Assembly: GCA_947632645.1 (NCBI GenBank)
Contig: CANRQB010000008.1
Location: 1 to 38,977 of the forward strand
Source: an uncultured Clostridia bacterium
GTDB lineage: Bacteria > Bacillota > Clostridia > Christensenellales > UBA1242
Length of the DNA: 38,977 nt
Reading direction: 5' to 3'
Part shown: piece after piece, positions 993 to 38,977 of the stretch
How positions within the stretch are numbered: position 1 is the first letter of the stretch
Layout: each line of letters begins with the position of its first letter
Translations under genes and position numbers: made by a program
The notes under the pieces: model-generated
Told to the model about the DNA's origin: nothing
The model's input: only the letters and a program-made list of their open reading frames with translations
Database searches by the model: none

Positions 993-2963
993 TTAATAAT
1001 AACAAATGTTCTTATTATATTTAACAAAATTTTTTTGCCAATCAGGAAATTTTTTAATATTTTCTATATAATAATCTCTTATGTTTGCGTAAAAAGCATT
1101 TTTGGCAAGCTCTGGGTCAAAAGAATATAAATGATGGGCAGTTTCTGTTACCACTTTTGCTGCAAAATCATCAGGCAGCGTGTAACCGCCCTCGGTTTCC
1201 TTTGCCTTTTTTGCCAAGTTTCGCAAGCCATTATCAAAAGTTACAAACGGTATTGGCTGGCCAGGTTTAACATTTGGATTATCCAGCACCAGCCTTTGCT
1301 CGTTTGGGTCAATTCGGGATGGAAGGTTTGTAATAAGAATTGCTTTGCGTGCAGTAACCCATTCACTCAATCCAACTTTTGCCACCACTTTATCATCCCT
1401 ATAATGCAAATAGTCTTCCAGCGGGAACAGACAGAATGCATAACCCTGGCCATCGCAATCCCAACAAGGGTCCCAAACATATTCGCCCTGCATATCATAC
1501 CAATCATCTTTAATTGTAACCTTTAACACCAAGTGGGAATAACGCCTTTCGCCTGTTTCTTTATCATAAAATGAAACATGCATAAACTCGCATTGAATGT
1601 TTGGGTCGCCCATTGTGTCCATATACGCTTTGGCGTGGCTTGCAAATCCGCTGCAAACAAAACCTTTTTGCTGCCGCTTTAATTCGGTTTGCTTTGAGTT
1701 GCGGCTGTCCTCCCCCGTTAAAAAGGTTCGGCTCTTTTCAAAATTTATAAAGCCCAGGCTGTCAAATAACTCTTTGATATTTGATGATTCTTGCACATTT
1801 TTTATCACCTGTTGATGCGGCTTTCTTAAATCATCAAATTCCTTTGTGTCGTTCATGTCCACCAATTGATATTTCCCTTTGGTTACAATATAATGCACCA
1901 AAAGCACTTTTTCAAACGGGGAGAGGTCCATTTTTTCTATTTTTTCAATATTCTTATTTTTCCAATAGTTTGCGTGGCGTACTTCATCATAAGTCCACAA
2001 GCGGTTTTTATCAAAAGGCAGCGGACCTTGCGGATAAAATTCGGAAAAATAAAGTTTATCCACTTTCCAATTAATAGAATTAAGCGTGTCTAGTTCCTCT
2101 TCTGTGTAGTTGTATGGCGCGACGATATCTTTGCGCTTTCGTTTTTTTGTTCCGTCTTCATCAATAACAAGTTCCAACTTTTTGCCATCTGCGTGTGCTT
2201 TTTGGTACAGTTCTGATATAAGTTTTTCAACCTCATCAAAATGTTCAAACAACTCATGGCGGTTTATTGCAATGTGATAATATTTTTGCGAATTATCTTT
2301 GTTCTCCACAATTTTTTGACGCAGCCATTTTATGTCGTCCTCTATAGTTATATATCTTGGCTCTTTAAGTCCAAGTTCTATTGTTTTTACAATGTCAGCC
2401 CACTTTTTCCCCGACAAAAGGGTTTTATCTTTAAGGACAAGTCCATAATTCATGGTCAACAAAACTGCGCGCTCTTCTTGCTTGATTTCCTTATACAGAA
2501 GATAGATTTTTTCTCTTTCTTCTTTTTTTAGTGAATATTGATTTTCCTTAATCAGTTTTAAAATGTTGTTATACTCTTCTTGCTGGCGTTCAATTTCTTC
2601 TTCCGTCATGCTGCTGCGCTCGGCCAAAAGTTCGTTAAGTTTTTTGCGGTAAAGTGCAGTTTGCGTGGAATATAGCCCATCCACCTCGGCTTGAACATCT
2701 TCAAAACTTTCACCTTTCAATAACCTTTCCAACCTAACAACCCATGCCGTGGAAAGTTTTGTAACCGCCTTTCTATCTTTGGATAAATTTTGCTCGCCCT
2801 TTGCTCGGCTTAATTTGCGGTAGCGTTCAAGTGAGGAATACAATTCGTTTAACTCACTTTTTGTTGGCAATTTATGAGTTGCTTTATACTCGTTTTTAAT
2901 GCGCTTTTTTGTGGCCTTATCCAGTTCTGCATCCGCCATGCGTTTTATAAAATTCTCTGCCAT
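993..2963 (-). CDS. Large protein with a C-terminal transglutaminase-like (cysteine protease fold) domain
   Basis: Ordered catalytic-like motifs GFVCSGFA (Cys), YSHLVLKV (His), YVWDPCWD (Asp), as in transglutaminase-core domains; RBS ggagggagat before ATG at 2963 (MAENFIKRM). Confidence 0.7.
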   Translation of the reverse strand: MAENFIKRMADAELDKATKKRIKNEYKATHKLPTKSELNELYSSLERYRKLSRAKGEQNLSKDRKAVTKLSTAWVVRLERLLKGESFEDVQAEVDGLYSTQTALYRKKLNELLAERSSMTEEEIERQQEEYNNILKLIKENQYSLKKEEREKIYLLYKEIKQEERAVLLTMNYGLVLKDKTLLSGKKWADIVKTIELGLKEPRYITIEDDIKWLRQKIVENKDNSQKYYHIAINRHELFEHFDEVEKLISELYQKAHADGKKLELVIDEDGTKKRKRKDIVAPYNYTEEELDTLNSINWKVDKLYFSEFYPQGPLPFDKNRLWTYDEVRHANYWKNKNIEKIEKMDLSPFEKVLLVHYIVTKGKYQLVDMNDTKEFDDLRKPHQQVIKNVQESSNIKELFDSLGFINFEKSRTFLTGEDSRNSKQTELKRQQKGFVCSGFASHAKAYMDTMGDPNIQCEFMHVSFYDKETGERRYSHLVLKVTIKDDWYDMQGEYVWDPCWDCDGQGYAFCLFPLEDYLHYRDDKVVAKVGLSEWVTARKAILITNLPSRIDPNEQRLVLDNPNVKPGQPIPFVTFDNGLRNLAKKAKETEGGYTLPDDFAAKVVTETAHHLYSFDPELAKNAFYANIRDYYIENIKKFPDWQKNFVKYNKNICYY

Positions 2964-3103
2964 ATCTCCCTCCATAAATATTATACCACAATATACCCAA
3001 AAAGTCAATATTACAAACGAAAAAAGTGGCACACGCCACTTTTATTTTTTTAATTTTTTGCATCTCTTAAATATCAAAATTTTTTAAATAACAACCATAT
3101 TTT

Positions 3104-3237
3104 AATAGGCTGGTTAGAAACGAGCGAGACGAGGCTCGAAATTCGCGGAGGGCAGGAGTTTAGTGTGTCTAAATGACTGCCTACACGGATTTCAGTAAAC
3201 AAAGTATCGAGAAGTTTATAAACAGCCTATTTTTTTT
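3104..3237 (+). ncRNA. Candidate structured RNA or dispersed palindromic element
   Basis: Outer stem AATAGGCTGGTTAGAAAC/GTTTATAAACAGCCTATT (16 of 18 pairs) followed by T run; inner stems CGAGC/GCTCG, AAATTCGcG/CaCGGATTT, GGCAG/CTGCC, TTTAG/CTAAA. Confidence 0.45.
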
Positions 3238-3760
3238 GCTTTTGCATAGCCTTTTGCAATAACGCTTTAAGCTTTTCCACCCCACCAGTTAAAAACTCTT
3301 TGCGGATGCAGGTGAACTCCACTTTGTTAAACACAAGCACTATTCGGTCGGCATCCTCTATATAACTTGATACATTTTTAAGGTTATGTGTGGCAGAAAA
3401 TTCCGCTTGCCCATCCTTAATCATTTGCTCGGTTATAACGTTGTTTTCTATTTTTATATCTAGGCAGTCCATCTCGTCGAACCCCTGTTTTTTAAATGCC
3501 TTTTTCTGTTGCGAAACAAGGGTTAGCGGAATTATAAGATAAATAATCTCCAACACAACAAGTGCCACAACCAAAATTATATCCCAAATTAAGTTGCGCT
3601 TAAGCACAATGTCCGCCACCAGCATGCCCACCATAGCCACAAGCAAAATGGGTATCATAACTGCAATAATTTTATCCTGCAGGCGGCGTTGCGAACGGTA
3701 GACATATTTTGCACATTTGATGCTATCCTCTAGCGTGTATTTGTATTTGCAAGTAAACAT
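3227..3760 (-). CDS. YcxB-like membrane protein
   Basis: Two adjacent TM helices then a soluble C-terminal domain (IENNVITEQMIKDGQAEFSATHNLKNVSSYIEDADRIVLVFNKVEF...), YcxB-like layout; AGGAGG RBS. Confidence 0.65.
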   Translation of the reverse strand: MFTCKYKYTLEDSIKCAKYVYRSQRRLQDKIIAVMIPILLVAMVGMLVADIVLKRNLIWDIILVVALVVLEIIYLIIPLTLVSQQKKAFKKQGFDEMDCLDIKIENNVITEQMIKDGQAEFSATHNLKNVSSYIEDADRIVLVFNKVEFTCIRKEFLTGGVEKLKALLQKAMQKQKK

Positions 3761-3842: not shown

Positions 3843-6800
3843 TTATATCTTATCGCTCTGCTTATATTTTTTTATTGCCCTAACGCGCCGTACTACGATT
3901 ATAGTTACCACTACCGCAATTATAATAAGCACCAAAAGCACTATAAGCAAAATTTGCCACCAAGTAAGCAACGACCTATTTTTGATGATTATAAACAGGT
4001 TTGGTTGGTTTACACTGCTTAAATCAATTTGGATGTTGCCGTCCAAGGTGTAGTTTAGTTGAGTAGCTATATTATCGTTGTTTAGATGTATAACTCCACT
4101 TAGCCCGCTAGTGGTTGGAAGTTGCAACATAAGCTCGTTTGGCACAAAGCTTGTTGTGCTGCCTTGCACAAGTTTTATACGATAGCCGACCACAAACGCT
4201 TTATTTTTTAAATTGCCCGCGATGTAGCGATAAATTCTGTTGTAAGCGGATGTGTCTGCCTTAATGGTTTCCACCACCAGTTGCGCGTCAAACGGGATAA
4301 GCGACACTTTGTTAGGATTGGTTTTGCCAACCTCGTTAACCACCGACACTGTGCCAAATCCATCTACCGTTGTGCTTATTTTGTACGGATAGATAGATGC
4401 GCTAAGTTGTTCGTTTGGAAGTTTTAGCACATAATTTTTTGCAATTTCGCCACCAAAGATATAACTTAGCAAAGTGTCCAAATTCGCAATTTCTATCGGT
4501 TTATTTGCACCAATTTCGCTTGCATTATCCCCTGCAAATCTAGCATCGATTAAATCGTTTAGTTTTATGCTAGAATTGTAGTTATCTTTAATGTCGCTTT
4601 CGTTTAAACTGCAAACAAAACGATTATCTATTTCCACCACGTTTGTGCCGTCGTACACCTTATCCCTAAAGTGCAGATTTTGCAAGCGAATTTCTTTGTA
4701 TCTAATCATGGCAGCGCTATCTAGAATTGCCTCTTTATTAACTATAAAGTTTTTGTTGCCCACCAAATTTAGATTAGATAGTTTGATGTTGTATGGTTGT
4801 GTGCTTGCCTCGTATGGCTGCCTAGTATCGTTTGGATTTAATTTGGTTATTTCGGCACGCGGTTTTAACTCTGAATTGTTATTAAAGGTGAAATTATGGT
4901 CTAGATAGTGCACTACGATGTTTGTGCGCCCTAAGATGCTGCCGTCTGGTTGGATATTTAAACGCTTGTCCGCGCCGAAATCCAATTTAGGCAAAATGCT
5001 ATTAGCAAAATCCTCTTGCGAAATTATATATCCAGTTGGGCCGTTGTAATCCTTATAAAATATTTCTGCATCTGATGCCAAATTTACGGTTAAAGTAACT
5101 GGCACCACTTCCAAAATTATATGATACGAGTTAAAGCCCATCTGCTTTAGCCACAGCGGTGCCTGATCGTCGCTTGACGCATTCGCCACAATTAGTCCAA
5201 CAAGATATTGCCCAGCGTCCACAATGTCGTTTAGTTCCAGCGCATTTTCTTCCAAAATATTAAGGCCATCGGTTATTTTGTAGTATTTAAGTTGCACATA
5301 TTTGGCAAAATAGCTGCTTAGTGTTATGTTATTATCCGCAGCTTGACCGATTGTTAGCCCAAGCTGATGATAGCCAACAATTTTGCCTTGGTTTTGGCTT
5401 GGATTTATAAACAAATAATCGCCGTAGAATTTGTGAACTTTTTGCCCTTGCTGATCATCCAATTCGTGCCTGTAAAGCAATTCGTCGTATCGCCTAGTGC
5501 TGTGGAAAGCGCTATCTTCTATTTTTGGTTGAATTACAAGCTCTATTTTTACATCGTTTATATAATAATGTTCGATAGCAGAAAAGTTATCATTAACTAG
5601 GCTTGCACCCGCCAAATTTAAATCTATTGGCTGCCAAACAAACCCGTCGTTGGTTGCAACCTTTACATAAGCATTTACAGCCACAACAACAAGGTTTTCT
5701 GCATACTCTGAATTTACGCCACCGCCAAAACTGTAAGATAGTCTGGCGTGTGTTAAAAAGGTGAATGAAGTAGAAAAGTTGCCGTCGGTTGGCAAGGACG
5801 TATTTGTGTCTGGATTGTCGATGTGAATGTTAAGCGAAAAATAGTTTTGCCCATCCCTTTGATAAAATTCTGGGTCGGAAATATTTGTAGTATAAGTAAG
5901 TTGTTTTTGCAGTATGGTATAGCTAAATTTTATGTTTATTTGATTGTCTTCGGTTAGATATTTTAGCACGCTGTTTAGGTTAAACGATATAAAGTGATCG
6001 TAACTATCACTATCGGAAAAGTTTAATAGTTCGCCACCCACAAACACTTGCAATCTTAAACCATCTTTAAAGTGGATTTCGCCCAAATTTAGCCCGTGTT
6101 CGCTTCCCACTGCAGTTATAAAGTTCATGCCAATTTGCACTATATCCCTATAGTGAAGCGGGGTGTTAGAGTTATCTAGCACAAAGCCATTATCGCTATA
6201 TCTTAAATAGTTAAAGGTAGCGTCTACAAAGCCATATTCGTTTTCGTACTCTTGCAAATAATCCTCGCCCAGCACTTCAAATGTGGTTATTGTGGAAATG
6301 TTTAGCTGATTGTATGCAATTTTAAACTCGATAACTTTTATATCATTTTCTTGTTTAACCAAAAAGTTAAGCACATTAAAGCTGTTTATTTGCAGGCTGG
6401 CTTGATTAAACTCGCTTAAGTTGCCTTGCGGCATGTCAAACGCGATGTAGTTGTATGTATATCCGTTTTCGCGCACTGGGGCGGCATTTATAACAACGGT
6501 ATCGTACATGCGCACCTGTTGGCTTATTTTGCCATTGACCATGCTGTATGGATTGCCCGCGATATCCAAATCTACATCATCGGTTTTAACTTTAGTTAGG
6601 CGAATTTCGTACACCTGATAGGTAAGCCTATATTGATATTCGTCGTTGTTTAATATAGTTACATTAAGTGTGTCGCCCGCCACGCTATCCGCACTTAATG
6701 GTGCACCAAATTTGTTAAACCAGCCCTCGCCCAAAAGCCCATCAGGGATGCCACCAGTTACACTAACTGTTAACACTGTGTTATATGCAATATTTTCGTA

Positions 6801-9800
6801 CACATAACTATGGTCAACGCGCTTAGGGGTAAGTTCGGCTTGCGAAATCTGTATGGTTGGCAAGCTAGAAAGTACAAGGTCGTCATATTCTGGGCGGTCG
6901 CTATTTACACTAAACGAAATTGTTAAATTATATGTGTGAATAGTGTACTCTATAGTTAAAACTATTTCGCTTTCGCCATCCCCACTTATATTTACTATAT
7001 CTTCCAATTCCTTTAGCATAAACTGGTGATAAAATTGGTTGCCAATAGTTTGGTTGGTTTGCAAATTTTTAATTTCCAGCTCGGAATTTAGATAGATTCG
7101 GTTAGCATAATATCCGTCCGGCATAGTAAAGCCAAATTCCAAATTGGATACATTAAGGGTGGTGTACTCTTGCCCATCAAATTTTACAAAAGTATTTTGC
7201 CACTCCTCTTTAGCATCCGCAGTGCTGTTGGTTTGCTTAATTTTTATTGTGTAATCAATCTCTTTAAATTGCAAATTGAGGGTATATTTTGGATTGGACG
7301 CCAAAGTAAACTCTATTTTTATTGTATCGCCCGTGCTAACGCGCACATCCTCCAGCCCGTCTATGGTTGCGGTAAGGAAAGTGTAGCCAAAATTCATGCC
7401 CGAGCCATTATAACTATAGGCATCAAATTCAACGATGGTTTTGCCCGTTTCGATGTTTATAATCTGCCCAGTTTCTTTTAAAAACTCCGATTTTCCATTG
7501 TGCGTAACTTTTATGCGAGTTAAATTTATTGCGTTTAAATTTGTTACAACTTCTAAAAGCGTGGTTGGCTCTACAAAGCTTACCTCTACACGTGCATTAT
7601 TTAACAATTGATAATCTATATAGTAATCCTCGCCATTTTTTTGCTCGGTTAGCTTATTTATTCCATCTTCAAAAAAGCGATTGAATTGGTATTTTGTATT
7701 TTCTTGTTTGGTTTTAGGCGTTGCTACAAGTTTAATTTTATCGTACAAATGTAGCCCTGTTAGGTGAATGTTTATTTTATTATCTGTTTTGGTAATTTCC
7801 ACATTAACTCTGCCGTAGGCAGGCTCAACTTCGCTATTAGGATTTATAGTTGCATCAGTGTCGCCCGTTACAGCCTGCGATAGTTCAAGCGAAATATCGC
7901 CCATAAATATGTTTCCAAGCGCCGTGTCTTGGTTGGAATTTATATAATAATCCAAACTATAGCTGATATAATTAAACTCTACATTAAGGGTTATTATTTT
8001 GCCTACACTATCGGCAATTAAATCTGCCACTTTATATTGTATTGTGTTGCTGCTTAATTGCTGCCCAGCAAACGATACAAGTTCAAAGCCAGTGTTAACC
8101 CTAAAGTTTATAGAAAATTCGTCAACCAAAATAAATTTATTATCAAAGGTTATTTCGTCTTTAGGGTTGCTAACCCTTTCGCTTACATTAGAGTTATACA
8201 GTGTTACATAGCTAAATGGATGGATTTCGTTGCCGTTGTTGTTTAGCAAGTATTCTTTATTACCCGTTATTTGTACTGTATATTGGGTGTAGTTGTACAC
8301 CATGTAGATTATAATGTTTTGCGGACGGGTATCATCTATTTTAATGTCTTGTTTAGATATTGTTTCGCTTGTAGAAATTTCGCCTGAGATATCCCTTGTA
8401 AAGCCAACAAAGGTGTAGCCCAAATTGTTGCTTAACTCGGTTTGATTTATATCCTCCGTTGGACTTTGCCCGCGATTTAATGCTATGCTTTGCTCCACAT
8501 TCATGTCTGGCAAAATGCTTACGCCATCGCTTGTTTGCAAAACAAATTGGAAGTGCACAAAATAGTTATAACTATTATATTTAACCTGAATTTTGCTATC
8601 GTTTAAAATTTGGGATAAATCGCTTAAACTAGCCGATTCAAACTGATAGTAGTTATACCTTAATCCACCATCCTCGAAATACACCGCTTGCGGATAAATC
8701 GCTTGCGCACCGATGCCAAAATTATCGCGTGCTTGTTTTATTAAATATTTGTAGCTTGGTGTGCTATCTTGCTCGTTAAATTTATAGTAGTAGTTGGTTA
8801 GTTGTATTTGTTGCAGAATTAACTTGCGCGCTGTGTTGTCGGATAAATCTAACTGATTGCCGTCCAAATATGGCACAAACTCGATGTAAAACAATCTATC
8901 GCACTTTAAATTTAGTTCTATGTTATTGTCCTCTTGCAAATTAAGTTGCTCGCTAGTTAGGTTGAAATTTAGTTGAATAGCGGTTGTAACCCCTTGCTCT
9001 GTTTTACTTTTAGTTAGATAGGAAGAGATATCCGCATTGCTGCCATTATACACAAGGCTGGCGGCAGAAATATCGTAGTTTAGCGTGGATTGCTCTTCTA
9101 AACTATCAAATCCAACATGCTTAATTTTAAAGTTAACATCAATCTGCTCGCCTAAACGGAAACCGCCTTGCATAACATCCACTAGTTGTTCGTTTGGTGT
9201 ATCTTGCAAAGTTTGATGCACACAAAATAATTTATCCTCTACAACTTTGGTTTTGCCAACAAAAAAGTGTTTGCCATTTTTGTTTATTATTGTGTTAAGA
9301 TAGTACTCTCCCTGTTGCTCGGTATAATAAATTTTGCCAATTCCATTTATGCTAACGCTATCTAATTGGTTTAATTCATCTATCACGTTATAAAAATTAG
9401 TTATATCAAAATTATAATAAGTTTTAAAATCAAAAACGGGATTTATTTGTAAATTTTCAAATGCCTGACTTATGTACAAACTGCCATCGTAAAATTTATC
9501 GCCATTTGTTACATTGTATCTAATTTCATAATATGGCTGATTTTCTTCCTGCAAGTCAGGCAAATTTTCTTTGGTTTGCCCCTCTGCTGAAATAAATTTT
9601 ATTGGATGTGCGCCGCCATCGTCCCTTTCCAAATATTCGATACGCCAACCAACCAGTTTAAAGCCATCATACGCCCTTGCATAAAGCGTAGCCGAACTGC
9701 CAAGTGCCACTTCACCATAGCCCTCGCCCGCGCCATTTTCCAAATTGGAAAGATATGGGGTGTCGCCATTTACTAGGTAGTTACTTGCTACTGCATCGGC

Positions 9801-9902
9801 CATATCTACCGCCGCTTGCACACGCGTAGGTGAAACGGAAAAGATTAGTGAACCAATCACTAGCGCCATTATTGAGATAGCTGCCAACAATAATTTTTTC
9901 AT
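3843..9902 (-). CDS. Giant (2019 aa) membrane-anchored surface protein with InlB B-repeat-like and YDG/MBG-like domains
   Basis: Signal peptide MKKLLLAAISIMALVIGSLIFSVSPTRVQA; many ~100-aa beta-type repeats; KVYDGT (YDG-like); C-terminal TM LLTWWQILLIVLLVLIIIAVVVTIIVVRRVRAIKKYK; no LPXTG. Confidence 0.8.
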   Translation of the reverse strand: MKKLLLAAISIMALVIGSLIFSVSPTRVQAAVDMADAVASNYLVNGDTPYLSNLENGAGEGYGEVALGSSATLYARAYDGFKLVGWRIEYLERDDGGAHPIKFISAEGQTKENLPDLQEENQPYYEIRYNVTNGDKFYDGSLYISQAFENLQINPVFDFKTYYNFDITNFYNVIDELNQLDSVSINGIGKIYYTEQQGEYYLNTIINKNGKHFFVGKTKVVEDKLFCVHQTLQDTPNEQLVDVMQGGFRLGEQIDVNFKIKHVGFDSLEEQSTLNYDISAASLVYNGSNADISSYLTKSKTEQGVTTAIQLNFNLTSEQLNLQEDNNIELNLKCDRLFYIEFVPYLDGNQLDLSDNTARKLILQQIQLTNYYYKFNEQDSTPSYKYLIKQARDNFGIGAQAIYPQAVYFEDGGLRYNYYQFESASLSDLSQILNDSKIQVKYNSYNYFVHFQFVLQTSDGVSILPDMNVEQSIALNRGQSPTEDINQTELSNNLGYTFVGFTRDISGEISTSETISKQDIKIDDTRPQNIIIYMVYNYTQYTVQITGNKEYLLNNNGNEIHPFSYVTLYNSNVSERVSNPKDEITFDNKFILVDEFSINFRVNTGFELVSFAGQQLSSNTIQYKVADLIADSVGKIITLNVEFNYISYSLDYYINSNQDTALGNIFMGDISLELSQAVTGDTDATINPNSEVEPAYGRVNVEITKTDNKINIHLTGLHLYDKIKLVATPKTKQENTKYQFNRFFEDGINKLTEQKNGEDYYIDYQLLNNARVEVSFVEPTTLLEVVTNLNAINLTRIKVTHNGKSEFLKETGQIINIETGKTIVEFDAYSYNGSGMNFGYTFLTATIDGLEDVRVSTGDTIKIEFTLASNPKYTLNLQFKEIDYTIKIKQTNSTADAKEEWQNTFVKFDGQEYTTLNVSNLEFGFTMPDGYYANRIYLNSELEIKNLQTNQTIGNQFYHQFMLKELEDIVNISGDGESEIVLTIEYTIHTYNLTISFSVNSDRPEYDDLVLSSLPTIQISQAELTPKRVDHSYVYENIAYNTVLTVSVTGGIPDGLLGEGWFNKFGAPLSADSVAGDTLNVTILNNDEYQYRLTYQVYEIRLTKVKTDDVDLDIAGNPYSMVNGKISQQVRMYDTVVINAAPVRENGYTYNYIAFDMPQGNLSEFNQASLQINSFNVLNFLVKQENDIKVIEFKIAYNQLNISTITTFEVLGEDYLQEYENEYGFVDATFNYLRYSDNGFVLDNSNTPLHYRDIVQIGMNFITAVGSEHGLNLGEIHFKDGLRLQVFVGGELLNFSDSDSYDHFISFNLNSVLKYLTEDNQINIKFSYTILQKQLTYTTNISDPEFYQRDGQNYFSLNIHIDNPDTNTSLPTDGNFSTSFTFLTHARLSYSFGGGVNSEYAENLVVVAVNAYVKVATNDGFVWQPIDLNLAGASLVNDNFSAIEHYYINDVKIELVIQPKIEDSAFHSTRRYDELLYRHELDDQQGQKVHKFYGDYLFINPSQNQGKIVGYHQLGLTIGQAADNNITLSSYFAKYVQLKYYKITDGLNILEENALELNDIVDAGQYLVGLIVANASSDDQAPLWLKQMGFNSYHIILEVVPVTLTVNLASDAEIFYKDYNGPTGYIISQEDFANSILPKLDFGADKRLNIQPDGSILGRTNIVVHYLDHNFTFNNNSELKPRAEITKLNPNDTRQPYEASTQPYNIKLSNLNLVGNKNFIVNKEAILDSAAMIRYKEIRLQNLHFRDKVYDGTNVVEIDNRFVCSLNESDIKDNYNSSIKLNDLIDARFAGDNASEIGANKPIEIANLDTLLSYIFGGEIAKNYVLKLPNEQLSASIYPYKISTTVDGFGTVSVVNEVGKTNPNKVSLIPFDAQLVVETIKADTSAYNRIYRYIAGNLKNKAFVVGYRIKLVQGSTTSFVPNELMLQLPTTSGLSGVIHLNNDNIATQLNYTLDGNIQIDLSSVNQPNLFIIIKNRSLLTWWQILLIVLLVLIIIAVVVTIIVVRRVRAIKKYKQSDKI

Positions 9903-10921: not shown

Positions 10922-11208
10922 AATTTTATTGTACCCCAAATATAAAAAAAATCCAAATAAAATTACATTATTTTTAAAATTTTATTATATTCATATAATA
11001 ACATAAATTTAAAATTCAATTAATAAAATAAAAAAATAATTAAAAAATATAAAAAAATAGTAATTTGCTTTAAATAAAAATTAAATCAAAAATATTATTA
11101 AAATAAAAAAATTATTAAAAAAATAGCAAAAAATACTATTTTATAGGGTTTATATATAAATTTATATTTTTAATTTTTTAAATATTTTTAAAAACAAAAC
11201 CAAATTAT

Positions 11209-38400: not shown

Positions 38401-38977
38401 AGCCTCTGGCTCGGCAATTTTTTGCACAATTAACACTAAGTTGTTATAAGTGTTGTTTGTATCCTTACCTAAACTTACTGTAAGTTGAGTTTGAGCGGCT
38501 GCATTGTATAAAAATTCGCCACTAAGTGGATAGGTTGCAGCTGTATTTGCACCAGATATTTGGCTAGTGGTATCTGGTGTAGCATCAAATGCCAATGCTA
38601 TGCTTGGCGCAGTTCCGCCGCCACCACCAGTTACAACCGCGGTTGCTTGATATTTTATTAAATAGTACCCTGCTGTAAGGGTTAAGGTATCTGTGCCGTT
38701 AAATAGAACATCGGTTTGATCGGCTGGATAATCGGTACCGGCAACTAAAGTTGGGTCGGTGTTTGCCGCAACGGTGGTTGCAGTAAATTGTGCCGCTGCT
38801 ATAGTTCCTGGCTCGCCTTGTGGGCCGGCTGGGCCCACATCACCTTGCACACCTTGTGGACCAACCGCACCAGTTGCACCCGTTGGACCGATTGGACCAG
38901 TAGGACCGGTAGGGCCAGTTGGACCGATTGGACCTACCAAACCCTGTGGACCGATTGGACCAGTTGGGCCGGTTGGA
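38398..38977 (-). CDS. Collagen-like ([11 protein letters not shown] repeat) protein with BclA-like C-terminal domain, partial at right edge
   Basis: Gly-X-Y repeats stay in frame to the window end; C-terminal domain [20 protein letters not shown]...[13 protein letters not shown]. Confidence 0.85.

Follow-up and report, generated by a model that had tools for sequence, protein, structure and literature searches.

The hairpin and its neighbours

The window (the whole stretch of DNA analysed, 38,977 nucleotides from an uncultured Clostridia bacterium) carries on its - strand a gene for a YcxB-like protein, followed downstream in the same direction by a 679-aa ORF whose true start probably lies nearer 2963. 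A Pfam search returned no match for the YcxB-like protein (E 1e-3) and none for the 679-aa ORF. Between the two, and reaching across the end of the YcxB-like gene, lies a large hairpin, the parts of which are as follows.

993-3032, - strand: 679-aa ORF, next gene downstream of the YcxB-like gene (from the ORF list)
3104-3231, + strand: complete hairpin element, 128 bases (covariance model R2 match at 3105-3230, 77.4 bits, E 3.2e-18)
3104-3121, + strand: left arm of closing stem P1, pairing with 3214-3231 with two G.A mismatches
3122-3137, + strand: conserved left motif GAGCGAGACGAGGCTC (consensus AAGCRAGACNAGGCTC), holding the 5' side of P2
3124-3130, + strand: 5' side of P2, pairing with 3204-3210, with a conserved internal G.A mismatch
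about 3134-3145, + strand: 5' side of P3, pairing with 3186-3196 (from the MFE fold)
3150-3163, + strand: 5' side of apical stem P4, GGGCAG-GA-GTTTAG (fold and covariation)
3169-3182, + strand: 3' side of apical stem P4, CTAAAT-GA-CTGCCT (fold and covariation)
3186-3196, + strand: 3' side of P3 (from the MFE fold)
3204-3210, + strand: 3' side of P2, supported by covariation
3214-3231, + strand: right arm of P1, pairing with 3104-3121
3227-3229, - strand: TAG, the native stop of the YcxB-like gene, within the closing stem
3227-3760, - strand: YcxB-like gene, 177 aa, its stop adjoining the hairpin
3230-3237, T tract as read on the + strand: complement of the Lys codons (AAA AAA) of the YcxB-like gene

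The sequence-only reading had proposed an 18-bp closing stem with two G-A mismatches, which was found exactly so (G3113.A3222 and G3117.A3218), and a right arm running across the stop codon of the YcxB-like gene, which also holds, the TAG being read at 3229-3227. The raised local GC it described was recovered as 0.44 in the element vs 0.22 in the left flank. Among the internal helices it listed, AAATTCGcG/CaCGGATTT, GGCAG/CTGCC and TTTAG/CTAAA fit the fold, but CGAGC/GCTCG falls outside the conserved structure, where covariation favours GCRAGAC/GTATYGC (3124-3130/3204-3210); instead of the branched fold it had drawn, the hairpin is an unbranched rod running from P1 to P4. The + strand at 3100-3243 has a minimum free energy of -48.7 kcal/mol vs -30.8 +/- 3.5 for dinucleotide-shuffled sequence (z = -5.2), a value reached by 0 of 200 shuffles. 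Scanned in full for stems with at least 16 of 18 positions paired and a spacer of 60-130 nt, the 39-kb window gave the hairpin, one low-complexity AT stem near 11031 and nothing else.

Three further features of the window were recorded. The 2019-aa ORF at 3843-9902 (- strand), with signal-like N-terminal and membrane-like C-terminal segments, probably encodes a large surface protein. At 19578-19661/19844-19881 on the - strand, a tRNA gene (Rfam match) is accompanied, 220 bases off, by a perfect copy, 38 nt long, of its 5' part, a repeat that reads as a truncated tRNA duplicate. At the edge of the window (38830-38977), imperfect GGACC-rich repeats in a 9-base register look like collagen-like Gly-X-Y coding sequence.

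A dispersed family with a conserved fold

In the host genome (28 contigs, 884,927 bases), a search at the DNA level gave 10 matches to the hairpin, and the covariance model recognised six complete copies, C8 (in the window), C12, C1, C7, C10 and C23. The 16-base left motif occurs 18 times in this genome, vs 0 for a reversed control pattern. At C12, C1 and C10, left halves form a tandem array followed by one complete hairpin and sometimes several right halves; the order at C12 is nested, L1 L2 L1 L2 - loop - R2 R1 R2.

Two covariance models were used to follow the element outwards, R1, built from 10 copies from two families of the order, and R2, built from 103 copies. R1 matched in at least 87 of 248 genomes and 36 of 115 genera of the order, with more than 10 matches per genome in some; since no more than 14 candidates were scored in each genome, these counts are minimum values. 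R2 matched in at least 46 of 391 genomes at class level and at least 35 of 399 at phylum level; in the large searches the number of candidates scored in each genome was capped at 14, 9 or 8, most genomes searched were draft MAGs, and ORF calls were mechanical. The hairpin family is found in many gut and environmental Bacillota.

Rfam 15, searched by gathering score and in E-value mode, holds no family that matches or covers the element, and open-licence papers on such repeats in Clostridia contained nothing matching, so that this is apparently a family of small, mobile, folding DNA elements undescribed in either. Phage and plasmid records gave no match at blastn level; seven pattern matches on viral contigs were set aside as chance, none being a covariance-model match.

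In the alignment of 102 distinct copies, standard pairing holds in 95.3% of cells vs 69.1 +/- 0.6% when shuffled, a contrast that is very large even though the alignment was fitted to the model and is biased towards structure. Cells changed on both sides number 625 vs 149 shuffled, double changes occur in 27 of 28 pairs, and the covariation score is 0.588 vs 0.150 shuffled, with all slid controls at or below 0.103. The fold is therefore kept while the sequence of the copies changes, their stems differing and yet pairing. Conserved features are the G.A mismatches of P1 and P2 and the purine loops around AAGG and RAC; the apical loop reads GGAG...YGACC in most copies and ATAGACC... in a second subtype. 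These results bear on the checks proposed in the sequence-only reading, which had looked to the host, its relatives, a covariance model and Rfam: the family is multicopy, its homologues carry compensatory changes in many genomes, and nothing in Rfam overlaps it.

The folded strand, be it RNA or single-stranded DNA, is probably +, since this strand folds better than its complement in 243 of 258 copies and carries more G-U than A-C juxtapositions (123 vs 31, with 58 from a single column). G-U pairs are scarce, at 5.4% in P1a, 0.5% in P2 and 10.4% in P4; tRNA stems at the same loci have 6.2%.

Placement, gain and loss of copies

The right end of the element lies at the end of a long opposite-strand ORF in 62 of the 102 distinct copies, and in 56 of these 62 the stop codon falls -4 to +30 nt from the conserved ATAARC motif; 17 of the gene-linked copies use the element's own TAA or TAG as the stop. 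When both sides are counted, the opposite-strand stop is the sole one in 52 copies, a same-strand stop at the left end is the sole one in 8, and both occur in 10; the remaining 32, many of them internal array members, have neither. In 20-kb windows from five genomes, a sample that overlaps the 102 copies, the ratio is 41 to 2 in favour of the opposite-strand arrangement at the right end. The genes concerned are ordinary ones and, judged from their C-termini, appear to include queA, recR, ruvB, EF-Tu, rpsI, rpsR, alaS, prfB and pyrG. Replication-strand bias as the sole cause of the orientation was rejected, because copies at rRNA genes are oriented to transcription the other way round from those at protein genes and because, where the gene lies on the local minority strand, four of six copies still have its stop on the opposite strand and so follow the gene.

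Two observations made at gene ends stand apart from these counts. At G784 loci L418 and L419, two different genes share the tail EDVQKVHRR-stop, coded by the terminal repeat of the element, which can therefore supply a C-terminal peptide. Behind the recR stop of two congeners lie large, unrelated-looking hairpins, ACTGGGCGAAGC...GCTTCGCCAGT at L231 and a different one, GGGGCGCAC...GTGCGCCCC, at L213, so that hairpins of other families may use such places too.

Stable-RNA genes form the second setting. In G399 and G461 the hairpin lies on the rRNA strand directly before 23S (at L309, element 4079-4201 and 23S from 4204), and it also precedes 5S in G399, in some G461 operons and in G617 (at L309, element 7241-7363 and 5S from 7368), as well as at L304. 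G399 has a further hairpin about 210 nt before 16S; others precede 16S at L291 and L294, and one lies 9 nt before a tRNA at L435. At L421-L423 the hairpin is found after 16S and before 23S. At most stable-RNA sites, just as at protein genes, it is with its right end that the folded strand meets a functional boundary; the copy behind 16S at L421-L423 is an exception. A 3.2-kb composite transposon suspected in G399 turned out to be rRNA operons carrying the hairpin before 23S and 5S. Some 23S gene copies of G399 and G461 carry internal inserts of about 130-145 nt (L311, L314, L316), which are probably intervening sequences separate from the hairpin family.

Comparison of filled and empty sites shows that the element is mobile and has been gained lineage by lineage. 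The YcxB-like gene is present in 19 congeners, with a hairpin match in the locus in 0 of 19; the window gene ends ...KK-TAG, and most of the 19 orthologues likewise close with KK, or with a comparable basic tail, before the stop. The recR gene bearing the C10 copy stops at its native position, where other congeners have unrelated sequence. In G037 the element follows alaS, a site that no match spans in the other 30 species of the genus; alaS ends in VK-stop or the like where the congener junction is readable and in LR-stop in G037, where the last codons and the stop come from the element. In G461, paralogous rRNA operons differ at the same site before 5S, where the element is complete, internally deleted or absent. 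A different subtype occupies that place in one G399 operon and in 4 of 4 examined G617 operons, together with an apparent remnant of the first subtype's left arm.

Near-identical copies in G784 have extended inverted repeats, and 7-8 bp direct repeats flank three of the four examined, a candidate target-site duplication that is clear in G784 only; direct repeats were not seen flanking most copies, and 8-mer repeats elsewhere are mostly array repeats. A search of G784 for an autonomous parent found that, apart from the small elements themselves, the terminal sequence nowhere occurs twice at a suitable spacing. The Y1 transposase (Y1_Tnp, PF01797) is absent from the host and from most element-rich genomes tested, carriers that lack it including G000, G037, G216, G247 and G249, and reverse transcriptase (PF00078) is absent from the host and most carriers tested. 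REP/RAYT and group II-type reverse transcriptase were accordingly ruled out as movers, many carriers lacking the enzyme in question.

Interpretation and comparison with known systems

With a probability of roughly 0.7, we regard the window hairpin as one copy of a family, apparently undescribed, of small mobile elements that are non-coding, non-autonomous and about 125 bp long. The copies of this family are dispersed, carry compensatory changes in many genomes and were gained lineage by lineage, and in the window the hairpin lies at the native stop of an intact gene. The proposal of a dispersed palindromic (MITE/REP-like) element, one of two options in the sequence-only reading, is thereby borne out by the multiple copies, the lineage-specific sites and the massive compensatory change, though not as a REP in the strict sense, given its length (about 125 nt vs 20-40) and the many carriers that lack a Y1 transposase.

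The + strand folds into a rod-like hairpin with purine-rich internal loops at regular spacing, and an enzyme supplied in trans, recognising the hairpin or its two arms, may move the element at the DNA level. It would settle where harm is small, directly after stop codons and next to rRNA and tRNA genes, where it could be co-transcribed as a hairpin in mRNA or precursor rRNA and, by analogy with ERIC and BOX, might affect 3'-end stability or processing. Simple tolerance leaves the near-absolute orientation and the tight stop-codon spacing unexplained.

These two features suit a less likely alternative, in which the hairpin has a function in cis within mRNAs and precursor rRNAs and is retained because it sets or protects RNA ends through processing by a double-strand RNase, a block to exonucleases or an effect on translation termination; mobility would then explain its spread, not its retention. 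The hairpins directly before 23S and 5S in all examined G399 operons, those before 16S in others and the strong purifying selection on the fold are likewise in keeping with such a role. However, the hairpin is not essential, since some G461 operons have none upstream of 5S and most congeners have none behind the corresponding genes. Besides, the strand transcribed is + at RNA genes and - at protein genes, and therefore no single RNA strand serves both; the - strand folds less well.

A doubtful proposal concerns how the mobile element would enter its sites: a phylum-wide mobile hairpin may integrate via its folded strand, right end first, at functional boundaries (stop codons on the opposite strand, or the points where rRNA and tRNA have their 5' ends), by a chemistry that is neither Y1, nor reverse transcription, nor that of integrons. 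If true, this would explain both the near-absolute orientation and the exchange of subtypes at the same site.

It is improbable that the copies express independent small RNAs of one family from their + strand, antisense to the neighbouring gene at its 3' end. Better folding of the + strand, its excess of G-U over A-C and purine-rich loops like those of structured RNAs all point that way, but the flanks read contain no consistent promoter-like sequence, many copies are tandem or half copies, G-U pairs are few, and insertion recurs anew, which is unusual for sRNA genes.

Still less credible is an attC-like recombination site, where a tyrosine recombinase would act on a folded bottom strand behind stop codons, as in integron cassettes. 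As in attC, the folded strand is the template strand (antisense) of the abutting gene, the site directly follows a stop codon, and pairing is kept while stem sequences vary; yet GTTRRRY/RYYYAAC core boxes are not evident in the aligned copies read by eye, the copies are dispersed behind housekeeping genes and before rRNA genes and not in cassette arrays, and conservation spans the whole rod, including long internal loops. Finally, an ordinary + strand intrinsic terminator, or the sRNA with its own terminator that the sequence-only reading had offered, can hardly be the nature of the family, for although a strong hairpin is followed in the window by TTTTTT on the + strand, this tract (real, at 3230-3237) is coding sequence whose KK-stop end most orthologues share without the hairpin, and in other copies the stem is not followed by a T tract.

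The element is taken, by analogy, to work like ERIC, BOX or MITE elements. ERIC (IRU, RU-1) is likewise an intergenic, imperfect palindrome, of 127 bp in ERIC and about 125 bp in the hairpin family, co-transcribed and thought to be non-autonomous and mobile, and its effects on mRNA depend on orientation (PMC2229807). Set apart by description, ERIC is enterobacterial, whereas the hairpin family extends across Bacillota, its copies differ in their stems but still pair, and they sit tightly at opposite-strand stops and before rRNA and tRNA genes.

According to the part of PMC3049150 drawn on here, BOX, with RUP and SPRITE, shares the modular build of folding repeats with pairing ends, is overrepresented between convergent genes and, in Streptococcus pneumoniae, provides 36 CDSs with their stop codon while leaving them untruncated; a near-absolute orientation to the abutting stop codon is not reported for BOX in that part. 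Compared by description, BOX belongs to pneumococcus and close relatives, whereas the hairpin family occurs in many families of the phylum and also in rRNA operons.

MITEs are similarly short, non-coding and numerous, with paired inverted ends, lineage-specific insertions and empty sites, and in G784 only the 7-8 bp direct repeats may be a further likeness; the arms of the hairpin, however, match each other and not a fixed terminal sequence, and no parent transposon sharing its ends was found in G784. REPs (REPIN-RAYT) are also extragenic palindromes near gene 3' ends, but measure 20-40 bp (PMC3733652) and go with the Y1 (RAYT) transposase that many carriers of the hairpin lack. We therefore file the element as a new family of the broad ERIC/BOX-like kind, and not as a member of ERIC, BOX, REP or attC.

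The present analysis provides both a covariance model and an annotation for this repeat, for which Rfam has no family. Within a single species or genus, the copies of a small palindromic repeat are as a rule near-identical, and it has long been asked how such repeats persist and for what reason. In the present case a single recognisable fold is mobile phylum-wide, and paired changes replace its sequence, so that selection on the fold becomes measurable; single genomes hold filled, empty and remodelled sites. The tight placement at stop codons and rRNA genes makes tolerance, targeting and RNA-level function directly testable in culturable Clostridia.
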